Assembly (NCBI RefSeq): GCF_019203965.1
Contig: NZ_CP076448.1
Span: 2,991,001 to 3,055,000 of the forward strand
Length of the DNA stretch: 64,000 nt
Direction: 5' to 3'
From: Elioraea tepida
Lineage (GTDB): Bacteria > Pseudomonadota > Alphaproteobacteria > Acetobacterales > Acetobacteraceae
Part shown: positions 17,450 to 26,879 of the stretch, piece by piece
Position numbering within the stretch: position 1 is the stretch's first letter
How the letters are laid out: each line of letters starts with the position of its first letter
Made by a program: the position numbers and the translations under genes
The notes under the pieces: generated by a model
The model's database searches: none
Seen by the model: the letters and a program-made list of their open reading frames with translations, nothing else
Told to the model about the DNA's origin: nothing

Positions 17450-18448
17450 GGCGAAGGAGGCCGACCGGAGGCGAGCGCCGCATGCTGGCAAATCGACGCG
17501 GCGGGCTCCAAGCATTTTCCTGCCGCGGACCCCGCCAGACTGGGTAGGCTACGATCCCGATCGGGCGTCTGAACCGCGAGATCAAGCGTCGTACCGAGGT
17601 CGTCGGTATCTCTCCCAACGAGGCCACCTTCGTGCGGCCCGTTGGTGGCAAGCTTCTCGAGCAGTGCGACGCGTGGGCCACCAAGCGCTCACGCGACATA
17701 ACCCCTGAGGCCATCAGCACCGTGAGTGAAGCTGCCGCCGCCAGGCTTCTCAGCCGTGCCGGGCTGGGCTGGCGGCCCAGCTCCCCGACGATCATCGCGC
17801 CCTGAACCACAAGATCGGGCACGACCAAGGCGTTCTACGCCCGGGCCGCTTGGACAGAGACCGCGCGCAGGACGGGGACGCACACGCCGCCGCCGCCGAA
17901 CGGCAAACCGTCTGGGGTTCCCAAGTCATGGGGCTGCAGGACGAGGCAGACTGCGGATCAGCCCGCGGTTCGCCGCCTAAGCGCCCGGCCCTTGCCTCCG
18001 ACCCGTTGGCCCGCGGTCAGGAGGGTGCAGCGGCGCGGGCACCGAAGCGACAGCGGCTGTCTGGAGGAGCGGGGGACGCCTCCTCTCGCGCCATCAGCAC
18101 CCGTCGCGCAGCGCGCGCCCCCTCCGTCGCGTTGCCTCGCCGCGGCGTCATGCTCCCTCTCGGGCTTCAGAGTGGCGAAGCGGGCCTCGACACGCGGCGG
18201 ATGACGGTGCAGAGAGGTCACTGTGTTCGCATGGGATCTCGACAGCCGCACAGAGAGGAATGCCGCGCGCGACGCGCTTGCCGTCGGCCTTCGCGGTGGC
18301 CTCGCCTGGATGGTGGAGCGCACGATCGCCGAAGGCAGGGCAGGCTTCGGCATGCGTGCATCAAGCCGCGCTTGCGAATTGACGGTCACCTTCGCCCGCG
18401 ATGAGCCGCGAAGGGCCACGGAGGACGACAGGAGAGGGAGAGAACAGG
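17450..18448. other. Degraded spacer between sox and suy genes
   Basis: About 1 kb without an intact gene. It holds an IS256-type transposase remnant (17554-17805). The rest shows only unconvincing short frames, one of which (18223-18474) overlaps suyA and has no recognisable domain. The low coding density compared with the surrounding sequence and the transposase scar suggest a decayed insertion junction. Confidence 0.65.
17554..17805 (+). pseudogene. IS256/Mutator-family transposase, C-terminal remnant
   Basis: The frame beginning at 17554 reads IPIGRLNREIKRRTEVVGIS, then SPNEATFVRPVGGKLLEQCD and AWATKRSRDITPEAIS. This matches the C-terminal end of IS256/Mutator transposases, where the usual pattern is NPIERLNREIKRRTxVVGIFPN, followed by LVGAxLLEQNDEWAVQR and RYM. 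Several substitutions at normally constant positions (F to S in GIF, LVGA to PVGG, NDEW to CDAW) and the absence of the catalytic core show a decayed fragment. Homology fades after about 17725. No flanking terminal repeats were found. Confidence 0.8.
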
Positions 18449-18733
18449 ATGACCATCCACTTCGTCGTGCATGACGAGCACGACTCGGTCGGGGTCGTGG
18501 TGGTGGAAGGGGTGAAGGCCGGCCAGGAACTGACCGGCTGGATCATGGATCAGGACCGGATGATCACCTTCTCCGCCAAGAACGACATCCCGATCGGCCA
18601 CAAGCTCGCCATCCGCGACATCGCCGCCGGAGACACCATCATCAAGTACGGCGTCGACATCGGCCGCGCCATCGCGCCCATCGCCGCCGGCGAGCATCTG
18701 CACGTCCACAACGTCAAGACCAAGCGCTGGTGA
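18449..18733 (+). CDS. suyA: (R)-sulfolactate sulfo-lyase small subunit SuyA
   Basis: 94 aa SAF-domain protein (UxaA/altronate dehydratase N-terminal family). Segments such as [33 protein letters not shown] and the C-terminal [10 protein letters not shown] are close to SuyA of sulfolactate-degrading bacteria. With SuyB it eliminates sulfite from 3-sulfolactate, giving pyruvate. ATG 18449 follows GGAGAGGGAG. SuyB starts 13 bases downstream. Confidence 0.85.
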
Positions 18734-18746
18734 GGAGGGCGCGACG

Positions 18747-19922
18747 ATGGGCATGGACCTCGGCAATCTGACCTTCGAGGGGTATCGGCGCGAGAACGGG
18801 CGGATGGGGGTGCGAAACCACGTCATCATCCTCCCGGTCGACGACCTCTCCAACGCCGCCTGCGAGGCGGTGGCGCGCAACATCCAGGGGGCGATGGCGA
18901 TCCCCCATGCCTATGGCCGGCTCCAGTTCGGGGCCGATCTCGATCTTCACTTCCGCACGCTTATCGGGGTCGGCTCGAACCCGAATGTCGCGGGCGTGGT
19001 TGTGATCGGCATCGAGCCCGGCTGGACAGGGCGGGTCGTCGACGGCATCGCGAAGTCCGGCAAGCCGGTCGAGGGCTTCTGGATCGAACAGCACGGCGAC
19101 ATCGCGACCATCGCCAACGCCTCCCGTGCCGCCTATCGCCTGGTCAAGCACGCCTCGACGCTTCGGCGCACGACGGCGCCCTTGCGCGAGCTCTGGGTCT
19201 CGACCAAGTGCGGCGAGAGCGACACGACCTCGGGCCTCGCCTCCTGCCCGACCGTCGGCAACGCCTTCGACAAGCTCTGGGAAAACGGCAATACGCTCGT
19301 GTTCGGCGAGACCTCGGAGCTGACGGGGGGCGAACATCTCGTCAAGGCGCGCTGCCGCACGCCCGAGATCGCCGCCCGGTTCCAGGCGATGTTCGACCGC
19401 TACCAGGCCGTGATCGAAGCGCACAAGACCTCGGACCTGTCCGAGAGCCAGCCGACCAAGGGCAACATCGAGGGCGGGCTCACCACCATCGAGGAGAAGG
19501 CGCTCGGCAACATCCAGAAGATCGGCAGGAAGTGCCTCGTCGACGGCGTGCTCGACAAGGCCGAGACGCCTTCCCACCCGGGCCTGTGGTTCATGGACAG
19601 CTCCTCGGCTGCCGCCGAGATGGTCACGCTCTGCGCCGCCGCGGGCTATGCCGTGCACACCTTCCCCACCGGCCAGGGGAACGTGATCGGCAACCCGATC
19701 CTGCCCGTGATCAAGATCACGGCCAATCCGCGCACGATGCGCACGATGCCGGAACATATCGATCTCGATGTCACCGGCATCCTGCAGAAGCAGATGACGA
19801 TCGACGAGGCAGGCGAGAAGCTGCTCGACTGCATCCTCCGCACCGCCAATGGCGAGCTGACGGCGGCCGAGATCCTCGGCCACCGCGAGTTCTCGCTCAC
19901 AAGGCTCTACGAGAGCGCGTGA
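18747..19922 (+). CDS. suyB: (R)-sulfolactate sulfo-lyase large subunit SuyB
   Basis: Catalytic subunit (391 aa, UxaA-like C-terminal family) of the cytoplasmic, iron-dependent sulfo-lyase. It begins [20 protein letters not shown], a segment shared by this family, and has [22 protein letters not shown] with cysteines likely involved in metal or cluster binding. The product sulfite could be oxidised further; a sulfate exporter gene follows. Altronate dehydratase is the family alternative, but the SuyA match and sulfur context favour SuyB. Confidence 0.85.
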
Positions 19923-21068: not shown

Positions 21069-22235
21069 TCAGCGCAGCGGTTCGAGCACCGAGACGTAGT
21101 TCGCGACCGCCACCCCGCCCATGTTGAACACGGCCCCGAGCGACGCCCCCGGCACCTGCATCGCCCCCGCCATCCCGGTGAGCTGCATGGCGGCAAGCGC
21201 GTGCATCGACACGCCCGTCGCCCCGATCGGGTGTCCCTTGGCCTTGAGCCCTCCGGAGGGGTTCACCGGCAGCCGGCCGTCCATGCGCGTCCAGCCCTCA
21301 AGCGCCGCGACCGCCCCTTTGCCCTCGGGCGTCAGCCCCATCGCCTCGTATTCGAGCAGCTCGGCGATCGTGAAGCAGTCATGCGTCTCGACGAAGTCTA
21401 GGTCCTCGAGCGTGATGCCGGCCGAGGCATAGGCTTCCGACCAAGCCCGCGCGGCGCCCTCGAACACGATCGGGTTGCGACGGGAAAGTGGCAGGAACTC
21501 GTTGACATGCACCGCAGCGCGGAAGCGCACGGCCTTCGCGAGCGTCCGCGCCACGTCCTCGGCGGCGAGAACCACCGCCGCCGCACCGTCGGAGACGAGC
21601 GAGCAGTCTGTGCGTCGCAAGGGCGGCGCGACATAGGGGTTCTTCTCGTGCACGCTGCGGCAGAACTCGAAGCCGAGGTCCTTGCGGATCTGGGCGTAGG
21701 GGTTGTTGACGCCGTGCGCGTGGTTCTTCGCCGCGATCATCGCGAGCGCGTCCGACTGGTCACCGTGGCGCTGGAAATAGGCCTGCGCGATCTTCGCGAA
21801 CACGCCGGCGAAGCCGCCCGCGACGCAGCCCTCTTCGGCGCGGTAGCTCGCCGCGAGCAGCGCCTCGCCGATCTTCTCGGGCGGTGTGGCGGTCATCTTC
21901 TCGACGCCGACCACGAGCACGATGCGCGCACGCCCCGCGGCGATCATGTCGCGGCCGGCATGGATTGCGGCAGAGCCGGTCGCGCACGCGTTCTCGACTC
22001 GCACTGCCGGGCGGAACCGCCACTCGGGAACGGCGTTGAAGGCGAGCGAGGCCGGGAAGTCCTGCGCCGAGAACCCGTTGTTAAAGAGGCCGATCGCGAG
22101 CGCATCGACCTCCTCGACCGCAAGCCCTGCGTCCTCGACGGCCGCGCGCGCCACCCGGGCGATCAGGCTCTCGATGTCGGGGTCCTCGAGCTTGCCGAAG
22201 GGGGTATGCGCCCAGCCGACGATGCAGGCGGCCAT
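21069..22235 (-). CDS. Thiolase-family protein (SCP2-type acetyl-CoA acetyltransferase-like)
   Basis: 388 aa. The nucleophile cysteine lies in RVENACATGSAAIHAG (about residue 87), and the C-terminal GGLKAKGHPIGATG motif supplies the catalytic histidine, as in SCP2-like thiolases. ATG 22235 is chosen because GAGGAGG lies five bases upstream; a GTG at 22241 is too close to it. Last gene of a three-gene minus operon, 10 bases after the TPP enzyme. The acyl substrate is unknown. Confidence 0.88.
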   Translation of the reverse strand: MAACIVGWAHTPFGKLEDPDIESLIARVARAAVEDAGLAVEEVDALAIGLFNNGFSAQDFPASLAFNAVPEWRFRPAVRVENACATGSAAIHAGRDMIAAGRARIVLVVGVEKMTATPPEKIGEALLAASYRAEEGCVAGGFAGVFAKIAQAYFQRHGDQSDALAMIAAKNHAHGVNNPYAQIRKDLGFEFCRSVHEKNPYVAPPLRRTDCSLVSDGAAAVVLAAEDVARTLAKAVRFRAAVHVNEFLPLSRRNPIVFEGAARAWSEAYASAGITLEDLDFVETHDCFTIAELLEYEAMGLTPEGKGAVAALEGWTRMDGRLPVNPSGGLKAKGHPIGATGVSMHALAAMQLTGMAGAMQVPGASLGAVFNMGGVAVANYVSVLEPLR

Positions 22236-22245
22236 CGTCACCTCC

Positions 22246-23988
22246 TCAGACGGGTCTGTCGCCTTTCTCCACCTTCAGGGTGCGATTGTCCACGCCGGGA
22301 AGCATCCGCGCCGGGTCGCGCGTGACGATCACGTCGAGAACCGTCGGCGTGTCGGTGTTGGCGAGGCCCTCGCGCAGCGCCGCCTCGATCGTGTCTGGGT
22401 CCTCGACGCGAATGCCATGGCAGCCCATCGCCCGCGCGACCGCGGCATAGTCCAGTTCGACCAGCTCGCTTGATTGGTAGTTGCCCGGGCCGTAGACGGC
22501 GTGCTGCAGCGCCTTCACGTATCCGGAGGCGGCGTTGTTGAAGACGCAGAGGACGATCGGCGTGCCGAGGCGTCGCGCGGTCTCGAGGTCGCCGATCGTC
22601 ATGTTGAACCCGCCATCGCCCGTGAGCCCGACGACGCGCCGCCCCGGTGCGCCGAGCTGGGCGCCGATGCTGCCCGATGCGCCATAGCCGATCGAGGCGA
22701 AGCCGCGGTCGGCGACGAAGTGGCGGCCCGGGCGCATCGTGTCGAACAGAAGCGCGCCCCAATGTGCGGCGAAGCCGCCATCGGCGACCAGGATCGCGTC
22801 CTCCGGCATCACTGCGTTGAGCGCGTCCATCAGCCGCCCGACATTGATCGGCCGCTCGCGGCTCTTGAGCCGATCCGCAGCACCGTCGCGCCAGGAGGCC
22901 ATCCTCGGCGCGACTGACGACCACCATGAATGCCGCCGCGACCGGCGATCAGTCCCTGGGCCGAGAGCGGCAGAGAGATCCTCAAGCGCAAGCCTCGCAT
23001 CGGCGGCGAGAGCGACCGTCGTGCGCGTCGTCCGGCCGATCTCGTCCGGCACGATGTCGATGTGGATCACCGTCTTGTCGGGCGGGATCAGCGTGAAGCG
23101 TCGTGTCGCGATCTCGCCGAGCTTACAGCCGACGACGAGCAGGAGATCGGCCTCCGCGACGAGCTCGTTCGCGATCCGGCTGTAGCGTCCGAACACGCCG
23201 GCCGAAAGCGGGTGCGTGCAGGCGATCGCGCCCTTGCCGGACATGGTGTGCGCGACCGGGATGCCCTCGCTTTCGGCAAGCGCCTGCAGCGCCTCGTGCG
23301 CGCCGCTGATATGGATGCCTCCCCCCGCGAGGACGAGCGGCCGCTCGGCGCGGGCGAGCAGGGTGGCGGCGCGCGCGAGCTCCGCGCCGTCCGGGCGGAA
23401 ACGTCGTGCCTGCACCGAAAGTGTTCCGGGGTCGATCCAGAATGCTCCAGCCTCGAACTCGTGCTCCCCGTGGGCCACGTCCTCCGGGACGTCGAGCACA
23501 ACCGGCCCCGGGCGCCCCGTGGTCGCGACCGTAAAGGCGCGCCGGACATGTTCAGGGATTCGGGCGATGCTCTCGATCCGGATCACCTCCTTCGCCACGG
23601 GGCGCAGCACCTCGAGCTGGCGCGCCTCCTGCGTCATGTTCTTCCACGAATGTTCCCGGTTCGTGTCGCCGGTGATGGCAATCAGCGGGATGCCGGCATT
23701 GAGGCTCTCGGCAAGCCCGGTCGCGAGATTGGTCGCGCCTGGGCCGAGCGTTCCGTCGCAGAGCCCGGGGCGGTTCGTCACGCGCGCATAGGCGTCGGCG
23801 GCGAAGGCGCCGCTGCGCTCGTCGTTGATCAGGCAGTGGCGGAGATTGAGGACGCGGCAGGCCTCGTAGAACGGCAGGAGCTGGAACCCGCCCATGCCGA
23901 AGATCGGGCCCGCACCCGCAAGCCTCAGCATTTCCGCAAGCGCCCGGCCGCCCGACATTCGGGTGGCGTTCGTGACTGGTGCCGTCAT
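22246..23988 (-). CDS. Acetolactate synthase-like thiamine pyrophosphate enzyme
   Basis: 580 aa with the three-domain TPP fold: N-terminal PYR domain with the conserved glutamate in LINDERSGAFAADAYAR (about residue 57), central domain (about 190-330), and C-terminal PP domain with the GDGGFNMTIGDLE diphosphate/Mg motif and NNAASGY. It resembles the IlvB family but lacks a neighbouring small subunit. It is not sulfoacetaldehyde acetyltransferase by N-terminal pattern. It may decarboxylate or condense a 2-oxoacid linked to the neighbouring sulfonate genes. It overlaps the preceding gene by four bases. Confidence 0.82.
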   Translation of the reverse strand: MTAPVTNATRMSGGRALAEMLRLAGAGPIFGMGGFQLLPFYEACRVLNLRHCLINDERSGAFAADAYARVTNRPGLCDGTLGPGATNLATGLAESLNAGIPLIAITGDTNREHSWKNMTQEARQLEVLRPVAKEVIRIESIARIPEHVRRAFTVATTGRPGPVVLDVPEDVAHGEHEFEAGAFWIDPGTLSVQARRFRPDGAELARAATLLARAERPLVLAGGGIHISGAHEALQALAESEGIPVAHTMSGKGAIACTHPLSAGVFGRYSRIANELVAEADLLLVVGCKLGEIATRRFTLIPPDKTVIHIDIVPDEIGRTTRTTVALAADARLALEDLSAALGPGTDRRSRRHSWWSSVAPRMASWRDGAADRLKSRERPINVGRLMDALNAVMPEDAILVADGGFAAHWGALLFDTMRPGRHFVADRGFASIGYGASGSIGAQLGAPGRRVVGLTGDGGFNMTIGDLETARRLGTPIVLCVFNNAASGYVKALQHAVYGPGNYQSSELVELDYAAVARAMGCHGIRVEDPDTIEAALREGLANTDTPTVLDVIVTRDPARMLPGVDNRTLKVEKGDRPV

Positions 23989-24821
23989 CCAGAGATCTCC
24001 CTTGCACGTGCAGCGACGAGGCGGGCGACGAGCTCCCGCGCCGTTTGGCCGACGGCACCGCCAAGCCGCGCCGCGACAGCGTTCACGGCCGAGACGATCC
24101 CGTCGTGATACGTGCTCGCGGCATCGCCGATCTCGGCGCTTGCGGCCGAGACGGTGGCCGCGGCGATGCCGCGCGCGGCGAGCGGCGCAAGCCTGCCCAA
24201 GCCTGCCTCGTCAATGCCGATGCCGGCGTCGTTGTAGAGGGCGGCGAACACCGCCACCTTAACCGCCGTCTCCGGCCGCCCGCCGAGCAGCGCGCCATGC
24301 GAGCCGGTGACGATCACCTGGCCCAAATCCTCAGGCCGGACGAGGGCGTTGCTGTCGAGCGCGAGCACGCGCACGCCCTTTGTGCCTGCCTCCGCGATCT
24401 CGCGCCGTGAGTCCGCAAGCGCGGGCGGGGGAGGCGAGGGCGGAAGCGCGGCAGCGGCAAACCGCGCGAGCGCCTCCGCCACCGCCATGCCGGCATCGAT
24501 GCCGAGCGCGCGGCCGCGCGCGTTCACGGTGGAGAGCACGCCGCGGCGGAGACAGTCCTTCCCGTCGGCGATCCGTGCGGACCAGACATCGACCGCTGCA
24601 GCGGGAACGCCCAAGTCGTCAAGAAGCGCGAGCCCCGCTACGCCCGCTCCGTTGCGGCCTATTCCCGCGTCGGAGAGGATCACGGCAGAGACGCCGCATC
24701 GCGCCGCGAGCGCCGCAGCGTAGCGGCCGCCATGCGACGGTGCGAGCACGACGCGCCCGCGTGCCGAGTCGTCGAGTTCCGTCACGCTGTCGCGCACGAT
24801 CACGCGCTCGGCGTCGCTCAC
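23985..24821 (-). CDS. Unrecognised protein made of two repeated halves
   Basis: 278 aa from GTG 24821, not recognised as any named family. Residues about 7-121 and 152-268 are repeats of one another. Each half begins RV-x-DS, then a V-rich strand and SHG, followed by an alanine-rich helix, the shared DAGIG (residues 51-55 and 198-202), a G-I/V-P/A-A-A-V segment, SA.I.D and G(V/I)(L/V)S(T/A)VNA. A proline-rich linker (about 127-135) separates them. No signal peptide or membrane segment. It heads the operon with the TPP enzyme and thiolase, so it probably acts with them; an enzyme active site cannot be named. Confidence 0.75.
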   Translation of the reverse strand: MSDAERVIVRDSVTELDDSARGRVVLAPSHGGRYAAALAARCGVSAVILSDAGIGRNGAGVAGLALLDDLGVPAAAVDVWSARIADGKDCLRRGVLSTVNARGRALGIDAGMAVAEALARFAAAALPPSPPPPALADSRREIAEAGTKGVRVLALDSNALVRPEDLGQVIVTGSHGALLGGRPETAVKVAVFAALYNDAGIGIDEAGLGRLAPLAARGIAAATVSAASAEIGDAASTYHDGIVSAVNAVAARLGGAVGQTARELVARLVAARAREISG

Positions 24822-24918: not shown

Positions 24919-25908
24919 ATGACCGCGTCTCGCGGCAATCTTGACCACGCTCTCAGCCTGCTGCGCACCATGCGGCGAATCCGCGCCTTCGAGGAGGCGG
25001 CGCTTGCCGGCCACAAGGCGGGGGAGATCCCGGGCCCTTTGCACGTCTCGATCGGCCAGGAGGCCGTCGCGGCCGGCGTCTGCGCGGCACTTCGGCGAGA
25101 TGACCGGATCACCTCGAACCACCGCGGCCACGGGCATGCGATCGCCAAAGGCGCTGCCCCAGGGCCAATGATGCGCGAGCTCTATGGGCGCGCGGGCGGC
25201 TTCTGCGGCGGCAAAGGCGGCTCGATGCACATCGCCGATTTCTCGGTCGGGATGCTGGGGGCGAATGGCGTGGTCGCTGGCGGCATCCCGATCGCCGTCG
25301 GTGCTGCGCAGGGCTTGAGGCTGCTGGGGTCGGACGCGATCGTCGCCTGCTTCTTCGGCGATGGCGCGGTCAATCGCGGCCCCTTCCTCGAGGGGCTGAA
25401 CTGGGCAGCGCTCTGGCGCCTGCCGGTGCTGTTCGTCTGCGAGGACAACGCCGTCGCCGCCTTCACGCGCGCTGACGCCGTGACAGCAGGCGCGGGTGCG
25501 GTGGCGCGCGCGGAGGCGATCGGCGTGCCGGCCGCGTCGGTTGACGGCAACGACGCGCTTGCGGTGCTTGACCTTGCCGAGGCGATGGTCGCTTCAATCC
25601 GGCGCGGCGAGGGGCCGCGTCTGTTGCATGCGCGAACCTTTCGCCTGCTCGGCCACACCTCGACCGACCCTGCCGCGTGGCGGGATGCGGCGGAGGTGGA
25701 AGCGGCGCGCGCGCGTGAGCCGATCGCCCGCCTCGAGGCCTGGCTTGCGGCCAATGGTGTCGACCGCGGCGTGCTCGAGGCGATCGCTGCGGACGCCGAG
25801 GCCGAGATGGCGAGGGCGCGCGCCGAGGCGCTCGCCGCGCCCTGGCCGGCGCCCGCTTCGGCATTCGCGGATGTGCAGGACGTCGGCGCGGTTCCGGTCC
25901 CCGCATGA
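24919..25908 (+). CDS. TPP-dependent dehydrogenase E1 component, alpha subunit
   Basis: 329 aa, E1-alpha of the pyruvate/acetoin/2-oxoacid dehydrogenase type. The TPP diphosphate motif is FFGDGAVNRGPFLEGLNWAA (about residues 157-176). The N-terminal RTMRRIRAFEEAALAGHKAGEIPG and HRGHGHAIAKG segments are typical. ATG 24919 follows GAAGGGGGGA. It is divergent from the TPP/thiolase operon (97 bases apart) and overlaps the beta subunit by four bases. No E2 or E3 gene follows, so the acceptor is unknown. Confidence 0.87.
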   Translation: MTASRGNLDHALSLLRTMRRIRAFEEAALAGHKAGEIPGPLHVSIGQEAVAAGVCAALRRDDRITSNHRGHGHAIAKGAAPGPMMRELYGRAGGFCGGKGGSMHIADFSVGMLGANGVVAGGIPIAVGAAQGLRLLGSDAIVACFFGDGAVNRGPFLEGLNWAALWRLPVLFVCEDNAVAAFTRADAVTAGAGAVARAEAIGVPAASVDGNDALAVLDLAEAMVASIRRGEGPRLLHARTFRLLGHTSTDPAAWRDAAEVEAARAREPIARLEAWLAANGVDRGVLEAIAADAEAEMARARAEALAAPWPAPASAFADVQDVGAVPVPA

Positions 25909-26879
25909 GCACGGCGACGATGATCGAAGCGCTCCGCCGCGCGGCGGAGCAGGAGATGCGGCGTGACCCGCGCGTGTGGGTGCTCGGCGAGGACGTCGCC
26001 CGCGGCGGGCTATTCGGACAGTATCGCGGCTTCCTCGAGGCGTTCGGGCCCGACCGCGTGGTCTCGACCCCGATTTCGGAAAGCACGATCATGGGTGCGG
26101 GGCTCGGCGCCGCACTCGTCGGCACGCGGCCGATCATCGAGATGCGCATCTTCGACTTCGTGATGTGCGCGATGGACGAGCTCGTGAACCAGATCGCCAA
26201 GGTGCGCTACATGTTCGGCGGCCAGGGGCGCGCCTCCGTGGTCGTGCGCATGCCGCACGGCATATGGCGCAACTCGGCCGCCCAGCACAGCCAGATGCTC
26301 GAGGCATGGTTTGCGCACCTGCCGGGCGTTGTCGTCGTCGCGCCCTCGACGCCCGCGGATGCCGCCGGGCTGCTTGTCGCCTCGATCCGAAGCGACGATC
26401 CGGTCCTGTTCTTCGACCCGAAGGACCTGTTCGGCGAGACCGGCGAGGTACCTGACGAGATCGAGCCGCTTCCCTTCGCCATGGCGCGGCGCGTGCGTTC
26501 GGGCGATGCGGCGACGGTGGTGACGTGGTCGGCCGCCGCGCGCGACGTGGCGCGCGCGACAGAGTCGCTCGCACGAGAGGGGATCGAGACGGATGTGCTC
26601 GATCTCCGCAGCATCTGGCCCTGGGACGAGGAGGCGGTCGTCGCTTCCGTTGCGAGAACAAGACGTCTTGTCGTCGTGCACGAGGCGGTCGAGCCGGCCG
26701 GGTTCGGGGCCGAAGTGGTCGCCCGCGTGGTCGAGCGGCTCGGCCCCGGCGGGCTGCGTGCCGTGCGCCGGCTTGGGGCGCCGCGCGTTCCCGTGCCCTT
26801 CTCCCCGCCGCTCGAGACGGCGATCCGGGTGACGGAGCAGAAGATCGTCGCCGCGATCCGCGACGTCGTGGCAGCCTGA
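25905..26879 (+). CDS. TPP-dependent dehydrogenase E1 component, beta subunit
   Basis: 324 aa. It has the transketolase pyrimidine-binding domain (VLGEDVARGGLFGQYRGFLE, then the PISESTIMGAGLGAAL glutamate region) and the C-terminal transketolase domain (VLDLRSIWPWDEEAVVASV). Forms the alpha2beta2 E1 with the preceding gene, coupled by an ATGA overlap. Acetoin or branched-chain/pyruvate-type substrates are possible; context suggests carbon from sulfolactate-related metabolism but this is inference. Confidence 0.87.
   Translation: MSTATMIEALRRAAEQEMRRDPRVWVLGEDVARGGLFGQYRGFLEAFGPDRVVSTPISESTIMGAGLGAALVGTRPIIEMRIFDFVMCAMDELVNQIAKVRYMFGGQGRASVVVRMPHGIWRNSAAQHSQMLEAWFAHLPGVVVVAPSTPADAAGLLVASIRSDDPVLFFDPKDLFGETGEVPDEIEPLPFAMARRVRSGDAATVVTWSAAARDVARATESLAREGIETDVLDLRSIWPWDEEAVVASVARTRRLVVVHEAVEPAGFGAEVVARVVERLGPGGLRAVRRLGAPRVPVPFSPPLETAIRVTEQKIVAAIRDVVAA

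Follow-up and report, generated by a model that had tools for sequence, protein, structure and literature searches.

The protein encoded at positions 23985 to 24821 on the minus strand of the window (the whole 64,000-nucleotide stretch of DNA analysed here) consists of two tandem copies of a fold of about 120 residues. It is probably an enzyme, a soluble alpha/beta protein of an unnamed family. A part in the pathway of two TPP enzymes with which it is co-inherited, by catalysing or controlling a single step, is strongly implied. We put the probability that the protein isomerises or decarboxylates an acid of the acetolactate type at a little under 0.4.

The tandem duplication and its predicted fold

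The target open reading frame runs from a GTG at 24821 to a stop codon at 23985–23987 on the minus strand. The first-pass annotation had claimed an internal tandem duplication of residues ∼7–121 and ∼152–268, and local self-alignment bore this out with slightly wider limits: residues 6–124 align with residues 151–271 with 43 of 121 columns identical and a score of 152, a value reached by none of 2,000 shuffled sequences (mean 43, s.d. 7.6, maximum 81). The motifs it had named (RV..DS, SHG, DAGIG, SA.I.D and G..S.VNA) are all present in both segments. A promoter and terminator scan gave no signal above chance. The gene is laid out as follows:

23985..24821, minus strand: target gene, 278 aa, an open reading frame with a GTG start
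24450..24806, minus strand: repeat 1, residues 6–124, from self-alignment; modelled alone with a pLDDT of 96.8
24372..24449, minus strand: proline-rich inter-repeat linker, residues 125–150, from self-alignment
24009..24371, minus strand: repeat 2, residues 151–271, from self-alignment; helix and strand order as in repeat 1

We modelled the whole chain with AlphaFold2 from 51 aligned sequences, which gave a mean pLDDT of 96.7 and a pTM of 0.92. In the model, strands fall (repeat 1/repeat 2) at residues 24–30/169–175, 46–50/193–197, 74–77/220–224 and 95–99/242–246, and helices at 56–69/203–216 (two pieces), 87–93/234–240 and, as the final element, 114–123/261–277. Different folds in the two segments would speak against a duplication; the predicted elements and their order along the chain (strand, strand, helix, strand, helix, strand, helix) are the same in both halves. 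A single half modelled alone, on a joint alignment of first and second halves, showed the same elements at its pLDDT of 96.8.

The absence of a named family also held: no Pfam, NCBIfam or PHROGs model scored above its cut-off with the window protein, a sequence search of the PDB gave no match beyond a short motif common to Y-family polymerases, and a wider Pfam scan returned short-motif families only. Foldseek searches of the PDB found nothing at E≤0.001, the lowest E value being 0.65 with the whole chain and 0.30 with the half; among the matches listed by this non-exhaustive 3Di search, query-normalised TM-scores reached ∼0.2 and 0.37, respectively. Comparison of the fold with viral models gave no match. 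These searches suggest an arrangement undescribed among solved structures. A confidently predicted fold of this kind, encoded in hundreds of genomes and still called a 'hypothetical protein', makes a good target for structure determination.

Besides the polymerase palm, the family's only weak Pfam match is to DUF1805, and the target could be read as a diverged DUF1805 member. The domain matches 10 of 13 family members (best E 3.7e-7), but the window protein scores 20.0 bits against a Pfam cut-off of 29.5, the profile–profile alignment spans 26–27 columns covering the last helix motif only (probability 30–42%), and the solved DUF1805-like structure 1qw2 is absent among the fold matches listed. 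We therefore rejected membership on the grounds of a short C-terminal motif under the Pfam cut-off, and consider this reading highly improbable. The DUF1805 sequences for these comparisons were gathered with an approximate YunC-like query, only the database sequences so found being used further; PF08827 itself was matched in none of 150 genomes sampled across the phylum.

Relatives, conserved residues and the origin of the duplication

Relatives are encoded at no fewer than 518 contig loci, the best 80 of these at least 518 lying mostly in Alphaproteobacteria, with some in Betaproteobacteria and one in an actinomycete. Of 289 alphaproteobacterial genomes, 32 (the window's own included) gave a match, most at 43–57% identity over nearly full length. 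The phylum-wide search, at E≤0.001, found members in just 6 of 299 genomes, and two of these six are marginal. Two weak matches were not counted as members: that in genome G063 falls in an open reading frame judged by eye to be an alpha/beta hydrolase, and the region of that in G160 has no match. Relatives on haloarchaeal, rhizobial and other plasmids are annotated as 'hypothetical protein' in public records.

A search for half-length homologues, proposed as a check on the duplication, found them as separate open reading frames of ∼130 aa (L128:8339-8740, L130:8486-8878, L188:8148-8540 and L198:5668-6060, the last form being present also in L195). L190 and L191 carry additional single-repeat homologues, and L189 has one in frame with a longer open reading frame. 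In that locus (L189:1-2406) the single-repeat domain ends an 802-aa open frame, the rest of which is membrane-protein-like, as a fusion or with an internal start; the single-repeat gene L128:8339-8740 sits between P450 and CoA-transferase genes in a genome from outside the class.

To place these forms we built a tree of 63 rows, including 23 first halves, 23 second halves and 7 single-repeat proteins. First halves form one clade (98/94) and second halves another (97/93), bacterial and haloarchaeal proteins together in each. From these sequence data, a single duplication most likely gave rise to the core two-repeat family. In the same tree, where the alignment is short and many inner branches are weak, all seven single-repeat rows lie outside both half clades, and the single-repeat proteins are therefore probably not fragments; we rejected broken halves as an unlikely origin for their genes. 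The divergent two-repeat paralogues of L129 and L131–L133 likewise lie outside the half clades, and may stem from separate duplications. The single-repeat relatives offer a chance to trace how a presumed homodimer became, by duplication, a pseudo-dimer.

Across an alignment of 51 homologues, seven pairs of equivalent residues are 100% conserved in both repeats: S29/S174, H30/H175, D51/D198, G55/G202, G60/G207, G94/G241 and N100/N247. The conserved segments were located as follows, from conservation and, for the first two, DSSP assignment of the model:

24732..24737, minus strand: S29-H30 of repeat 1, invariant, at the end of the first long strand
24657..24671, minus strand: D51-A-G-I-G55 of repeat 1, at the end of the second strand
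24564..24575, minus strand: R83-I-A-D86 of repeat 1 (family consensus RIGD), after the third strand
24522..24524, minus strand: N100 of repeat 1, invariant, after the fourth strand
24294..24302, minus strand: S174-H175-G176 of repeat 2, invariant
24216..24230, minus strand: D198-A-G-I-G202 of repeat 2
24081..24083, minus strand: N247 of repeat 2, invariant

In the model the S-H, D-A-G-x-G, R-I-G-D and N residues lie at or just past strand ends, where they probably line either one pocket per repeat or a single pseudo-twofold pocket. At one equivalent position the repeats carry different residues, D89 in repeat 1 versus S236 in repeat 2, each 100% conserved across the 51 homologues. This fixed difference means that the putative sites of the two repeats are at least not identical, and suggests that they have diverged. 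The family pattern of DS, SHG, DAGxG, RIGD and G.IS.VN in each repeat was found in the window protein except at A85 (24567–24569), where 96% of the family have glycine, and E230 (24132–24134), where 96% have arginine. These two substitutions may mean that the sites of the window protein are altered, that of the second repeat above all.

Association with TPP enzymes and candidate functions

The first-pass annotation had placed the gene at the head of a TPP/thiolase operon, and the gene spacing agrees: the target stop overlaps the start of the TPP enzyme gene (ATGA), and the thiolase gene follows after a gap of 4 bp. The neighbouring genes are:

22246..23988, minus strand: acetolactate-synthase-like TPP enzyme, 580 aa, with Pfam TPP_enzyme_N/M/C domains; scores under cut-off with each listed NCBIfam model
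21069..22241, minus strand: thiolase-superfamily enzyme of the PRK07516 subfamily (over cut-off; Pfam/NCBIfam)
24919..25908, plus strand: E1-alpha-like TPP dehydrogenase subunit (Pfam E1_dh), divergent from the target, with 97 bp between the two starts
25905..26879, plus strand: E1-beta-like TPP dehydrogenase subunit (Pfam Transket_pyr/Transketolase_C)

The same module, with the thiolase gene adjoining, occurs in the Elioraea loci L044 and L062, the latter from the laboratory strain Elioraea tepidiphila DSM 17972, and a thiolase gene also lies near a relative on a Rhizobium plasmid (L111). By eye, the thiolase-like protein (21069–22241) keeps the N-terminal catalytic cysteine (NACATG) and has NMGG in place of the classical C-terminal CGG. 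Elsewhere in the window (18401–19922), a galactarate-dehydratase-type enzyme is split over two genes, one with an SAF domain and the other with GD_AH domains. No E2 gene lies near the E1 pair. The genome has just two, one at 0.17 Mb and the other at 1.20 Mb, both far from the window at 2.99–3.06 Mb; the pair may be independent of lipoate or may rely on a housekeeping E2.

In the loci compared, the recurrent partners of the target are the TPP enzyme, beside or near it in most, and the E1 pair. We therefore counted orthologues in the 289 alphaproteobacterial genomes, at thresholds of E≤1e-150 for the TPP enzyme and E≤1e-100 for E1-alpha. Full-length target occurs in 30 genomes, the TPP enzyme in 26 and E1-alpha in 24, and all three genes are found together in 24 genomes from 16 families, that is, in every genome with E1-alpha. 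The target is present in 24 of the 26 genomes with the TPP enzyme, and six genomes have it without an orthologue of either TPP enzyme or E1-alpha. Fisher tests gave P values of 3e-27 to 5e-33, uncorrected for phylogeny, so that the count of 16 families is the safer measure. Among the 24 genomes, the TPP enzyme is more than 10 kb from the target or on another contig in five, as is E1-alpha in five, and these non-neighbouring partners show that the link is not merely one of shared location. A search of plasmids for the TPP enzyme gave no match at E≤1e-100. The simplest reading, for which the case is strong, is that the target belongs to one pathway with the acetolactate-synthase-like TPP enzyme and the E1 pair. 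This strict co-inheritance outlines an uncharacterised three-component pathway that is directly testable.

The same association could be explained if the target served the TPP enzyme as a non-enzymatic subunit, with a regulatory or metabolite-binding role like that of the acetolactate synthase regulatory subunit. The start–stop overlap suggests translational coupling to the TPP gene, and co-inheritance with the enzyme and a small domain present twice in one chain fit such a role. However, there are relatives without an acetolactate-synthase-like TPP enzyme (in haloarchaea, in L129 and in the six target-only genomes), the polar residues conserved without exception at the strand ends have a catalytic look, and no ACT or other regulatory domain was matched in Pfam or NCBIfam. 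We regard a regulatory subunit as quite unlikely.

As to what an enzymatic target would act on, three genomic contexts point to a common class of metabolite, which we infer to be alpha-hydroxy-beta-keto acids of the acetolactate type. Acetolactate-synthase-type TPP enzymes make or use such acids. In the second context, haloarchaeal members adjoin genes for a RuBisCO-like protein and a DUF1537 kinase, with a PGDH_C protein also present in four of five, and in L129 all three flank the target relative. By family membership, the PGDH_C genes would encode the apionate oxidoisomerase and the DUF1537 genes the 3-oxoisoapionate kinase. The third context is that of L198, where the single-repeat gene lies between genes for a TPP enzyme and a KASIII. 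This common-metabolite argument joins the three contexts by chemistry, with no gene shared among them and the KASIII context represented by a single case. For the second context, RuBisCO-like proteins of D-apiose pathways act on 3-oxo-isoapionate 4-phosphate (PMC6302742), and an oxidoisomerase and a 3-oxoisoapionate kinase are among the enzymes of the pathway (PMC11747546). The window's own genome gives no indication of an apionate route; a search of that genome for PGDH_C gave no match, and the search's control matched nowhere either.

We propose that small organic acids are probably imported through TRAP or TctC-type transporters, and that the target would then carry out a cofactor-free isomerisation (a ketol shift or epimerisation) of an alpha-hydroxy-beta-keto acid. 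Alternatively, it would decarboxylate such an acid to an acyloin, a possible substrate for cleavage by the E1-alpha/beta pair. As a decarboxylase, the target might duplicate the RuBisCO-like protein in haloarchaeal clusters; no acetolactate decarboxylase model of Pfam or NCBIfam matched the target at E≤1. We hold as doubtful the broader proposal that an undescribed fold, in its single-repeat and tandem forms in bacteria and haloarchaea, would be a dedicated handler of alpha-hydroxy-beta-keto acids that, with the acetolactate-synthase-like TPP enzyme and the E1 pair, makes up an undescribed catabolic pathway of many alphaproteobacterial families.

Genes for TRAP or TctC transporters and for IclR regulators, which are present in many target loci, are also compatible with a hydrolase or lactonase that acts ahead of the TPP enzymes by opening either the substrate after its import or a cyclic intermediate, the common factor then being small hydroxy or sugar acids. 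A gluconolactonase-like SMP-30 gene adjoins the L129 relative, and in Phreatobacter the target gene adjoins that of an AtzD/TrzD ring-opening amidohydrolase. The SMP-30 gene could however itself supply the lactonase, making a second redundant, and the neighbouring AtzD genes run on the opposite strand, come from one genus group and encode proteins with no profile similarity to the target, in which no classic hydrolase motif was seen. We consider this explanation unlikely. Another reading, in our estimation very unlikely, makes the target a downstream partner of HpcH/HpaI aldolases that handles a 4-hydroxy-2-oxo or 2-keto-3-deoxy acid, whether as aldolase, hydratase or epimerase: genes for such aldolases lie near the target gene in four haloarchaeal plasmids and in L090, L110 and L152, and near the single-repeat genes of L130 and L191, but most TPP-associated members, that of the window included, have no HpcH gene nearby. 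Our preferred reading remains that the target isomerises or decarboxylates an acid of the acetolactate type.

Comparison with known systems

The C-termini of the repeats carry a helix motif of 25–30 residues that is common, by sequence and structure, with the Y-family polymerase palm and, by sequence, with DUF1805. Like DUF1805 proteins (PF08827; the B. subtilis YunC type, 1qw2), each target repeat ends in the helix-turn motif ...A..LGI..GM...EAL, but the rest of the repeat is unaligned and DUF1805 is shorter than one repeat. With the Y-family palm (IMS, PF00817) the target has in common 25–30 residues of the form G.V..AN..A...G...GM, with an r.m.s.d. of ∼0.4–1.1 Å in the best short matches; unlike those enzymes, it has the motif only, without the polymerase fold. 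The PF00817 palm scored 16.9 bits in the window protein, over 34 residues, against a cut-off of 23.2, and a polymerase identity was rejected as a common helix motif in a different fold.

The AtzD/TrzD fold is also built from repeats, and its gene is a neighbour of the target in Phreatobacter. A cyanuric-acid-hydrolase gene of this type is convergent near the target homologue in five loci (L035, L038, L040, L043 and L068) from Phreatobacter and a related MAG. We rejected a relationship between the two proteins, with an hhalign probability of 0.1% and no match to PF09663.

D-apionate catabolism, with its PGDH_C oxidoisomerase, DUF1537 kinase and RuBisCO-like protein (Carter et al. 2018, cited in PMC6302742), resembles the present system in that these families flank target relatives in haloarchaea and L129, and differs in that all three genes are missing from the cluster in the window. 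The pathway accounts cited here describe no protein of the target's family.

In the carbazole and scytonemin systems (NzsH/I/J, equivalent to CqsB3/2/1, and ScyA/C), the likeness is to L198, where a TPP enzyme, the single-repeat protein and a KASIII stand in a row. The TPP enzyme of this locus is closest to BbmA/CsmA and scores also with ScyA-related models. CqsB2/NzsI is a Bet v1-like SRPBCC protein (PMC7466098, PMC10100901), and its correspondence to the target is an analogy of position, not homology, of which no sign was found between the target and the third enzymes of these systems; an SRPBCC cyclase identity was rejected on fold class, with no Pfam match and none among the Foldseek matches listed. 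By analogy with these systems, the probable role of the target, control of a labile product or substrate of a TPP enzyme, would have precedents among non-homologous proteins.
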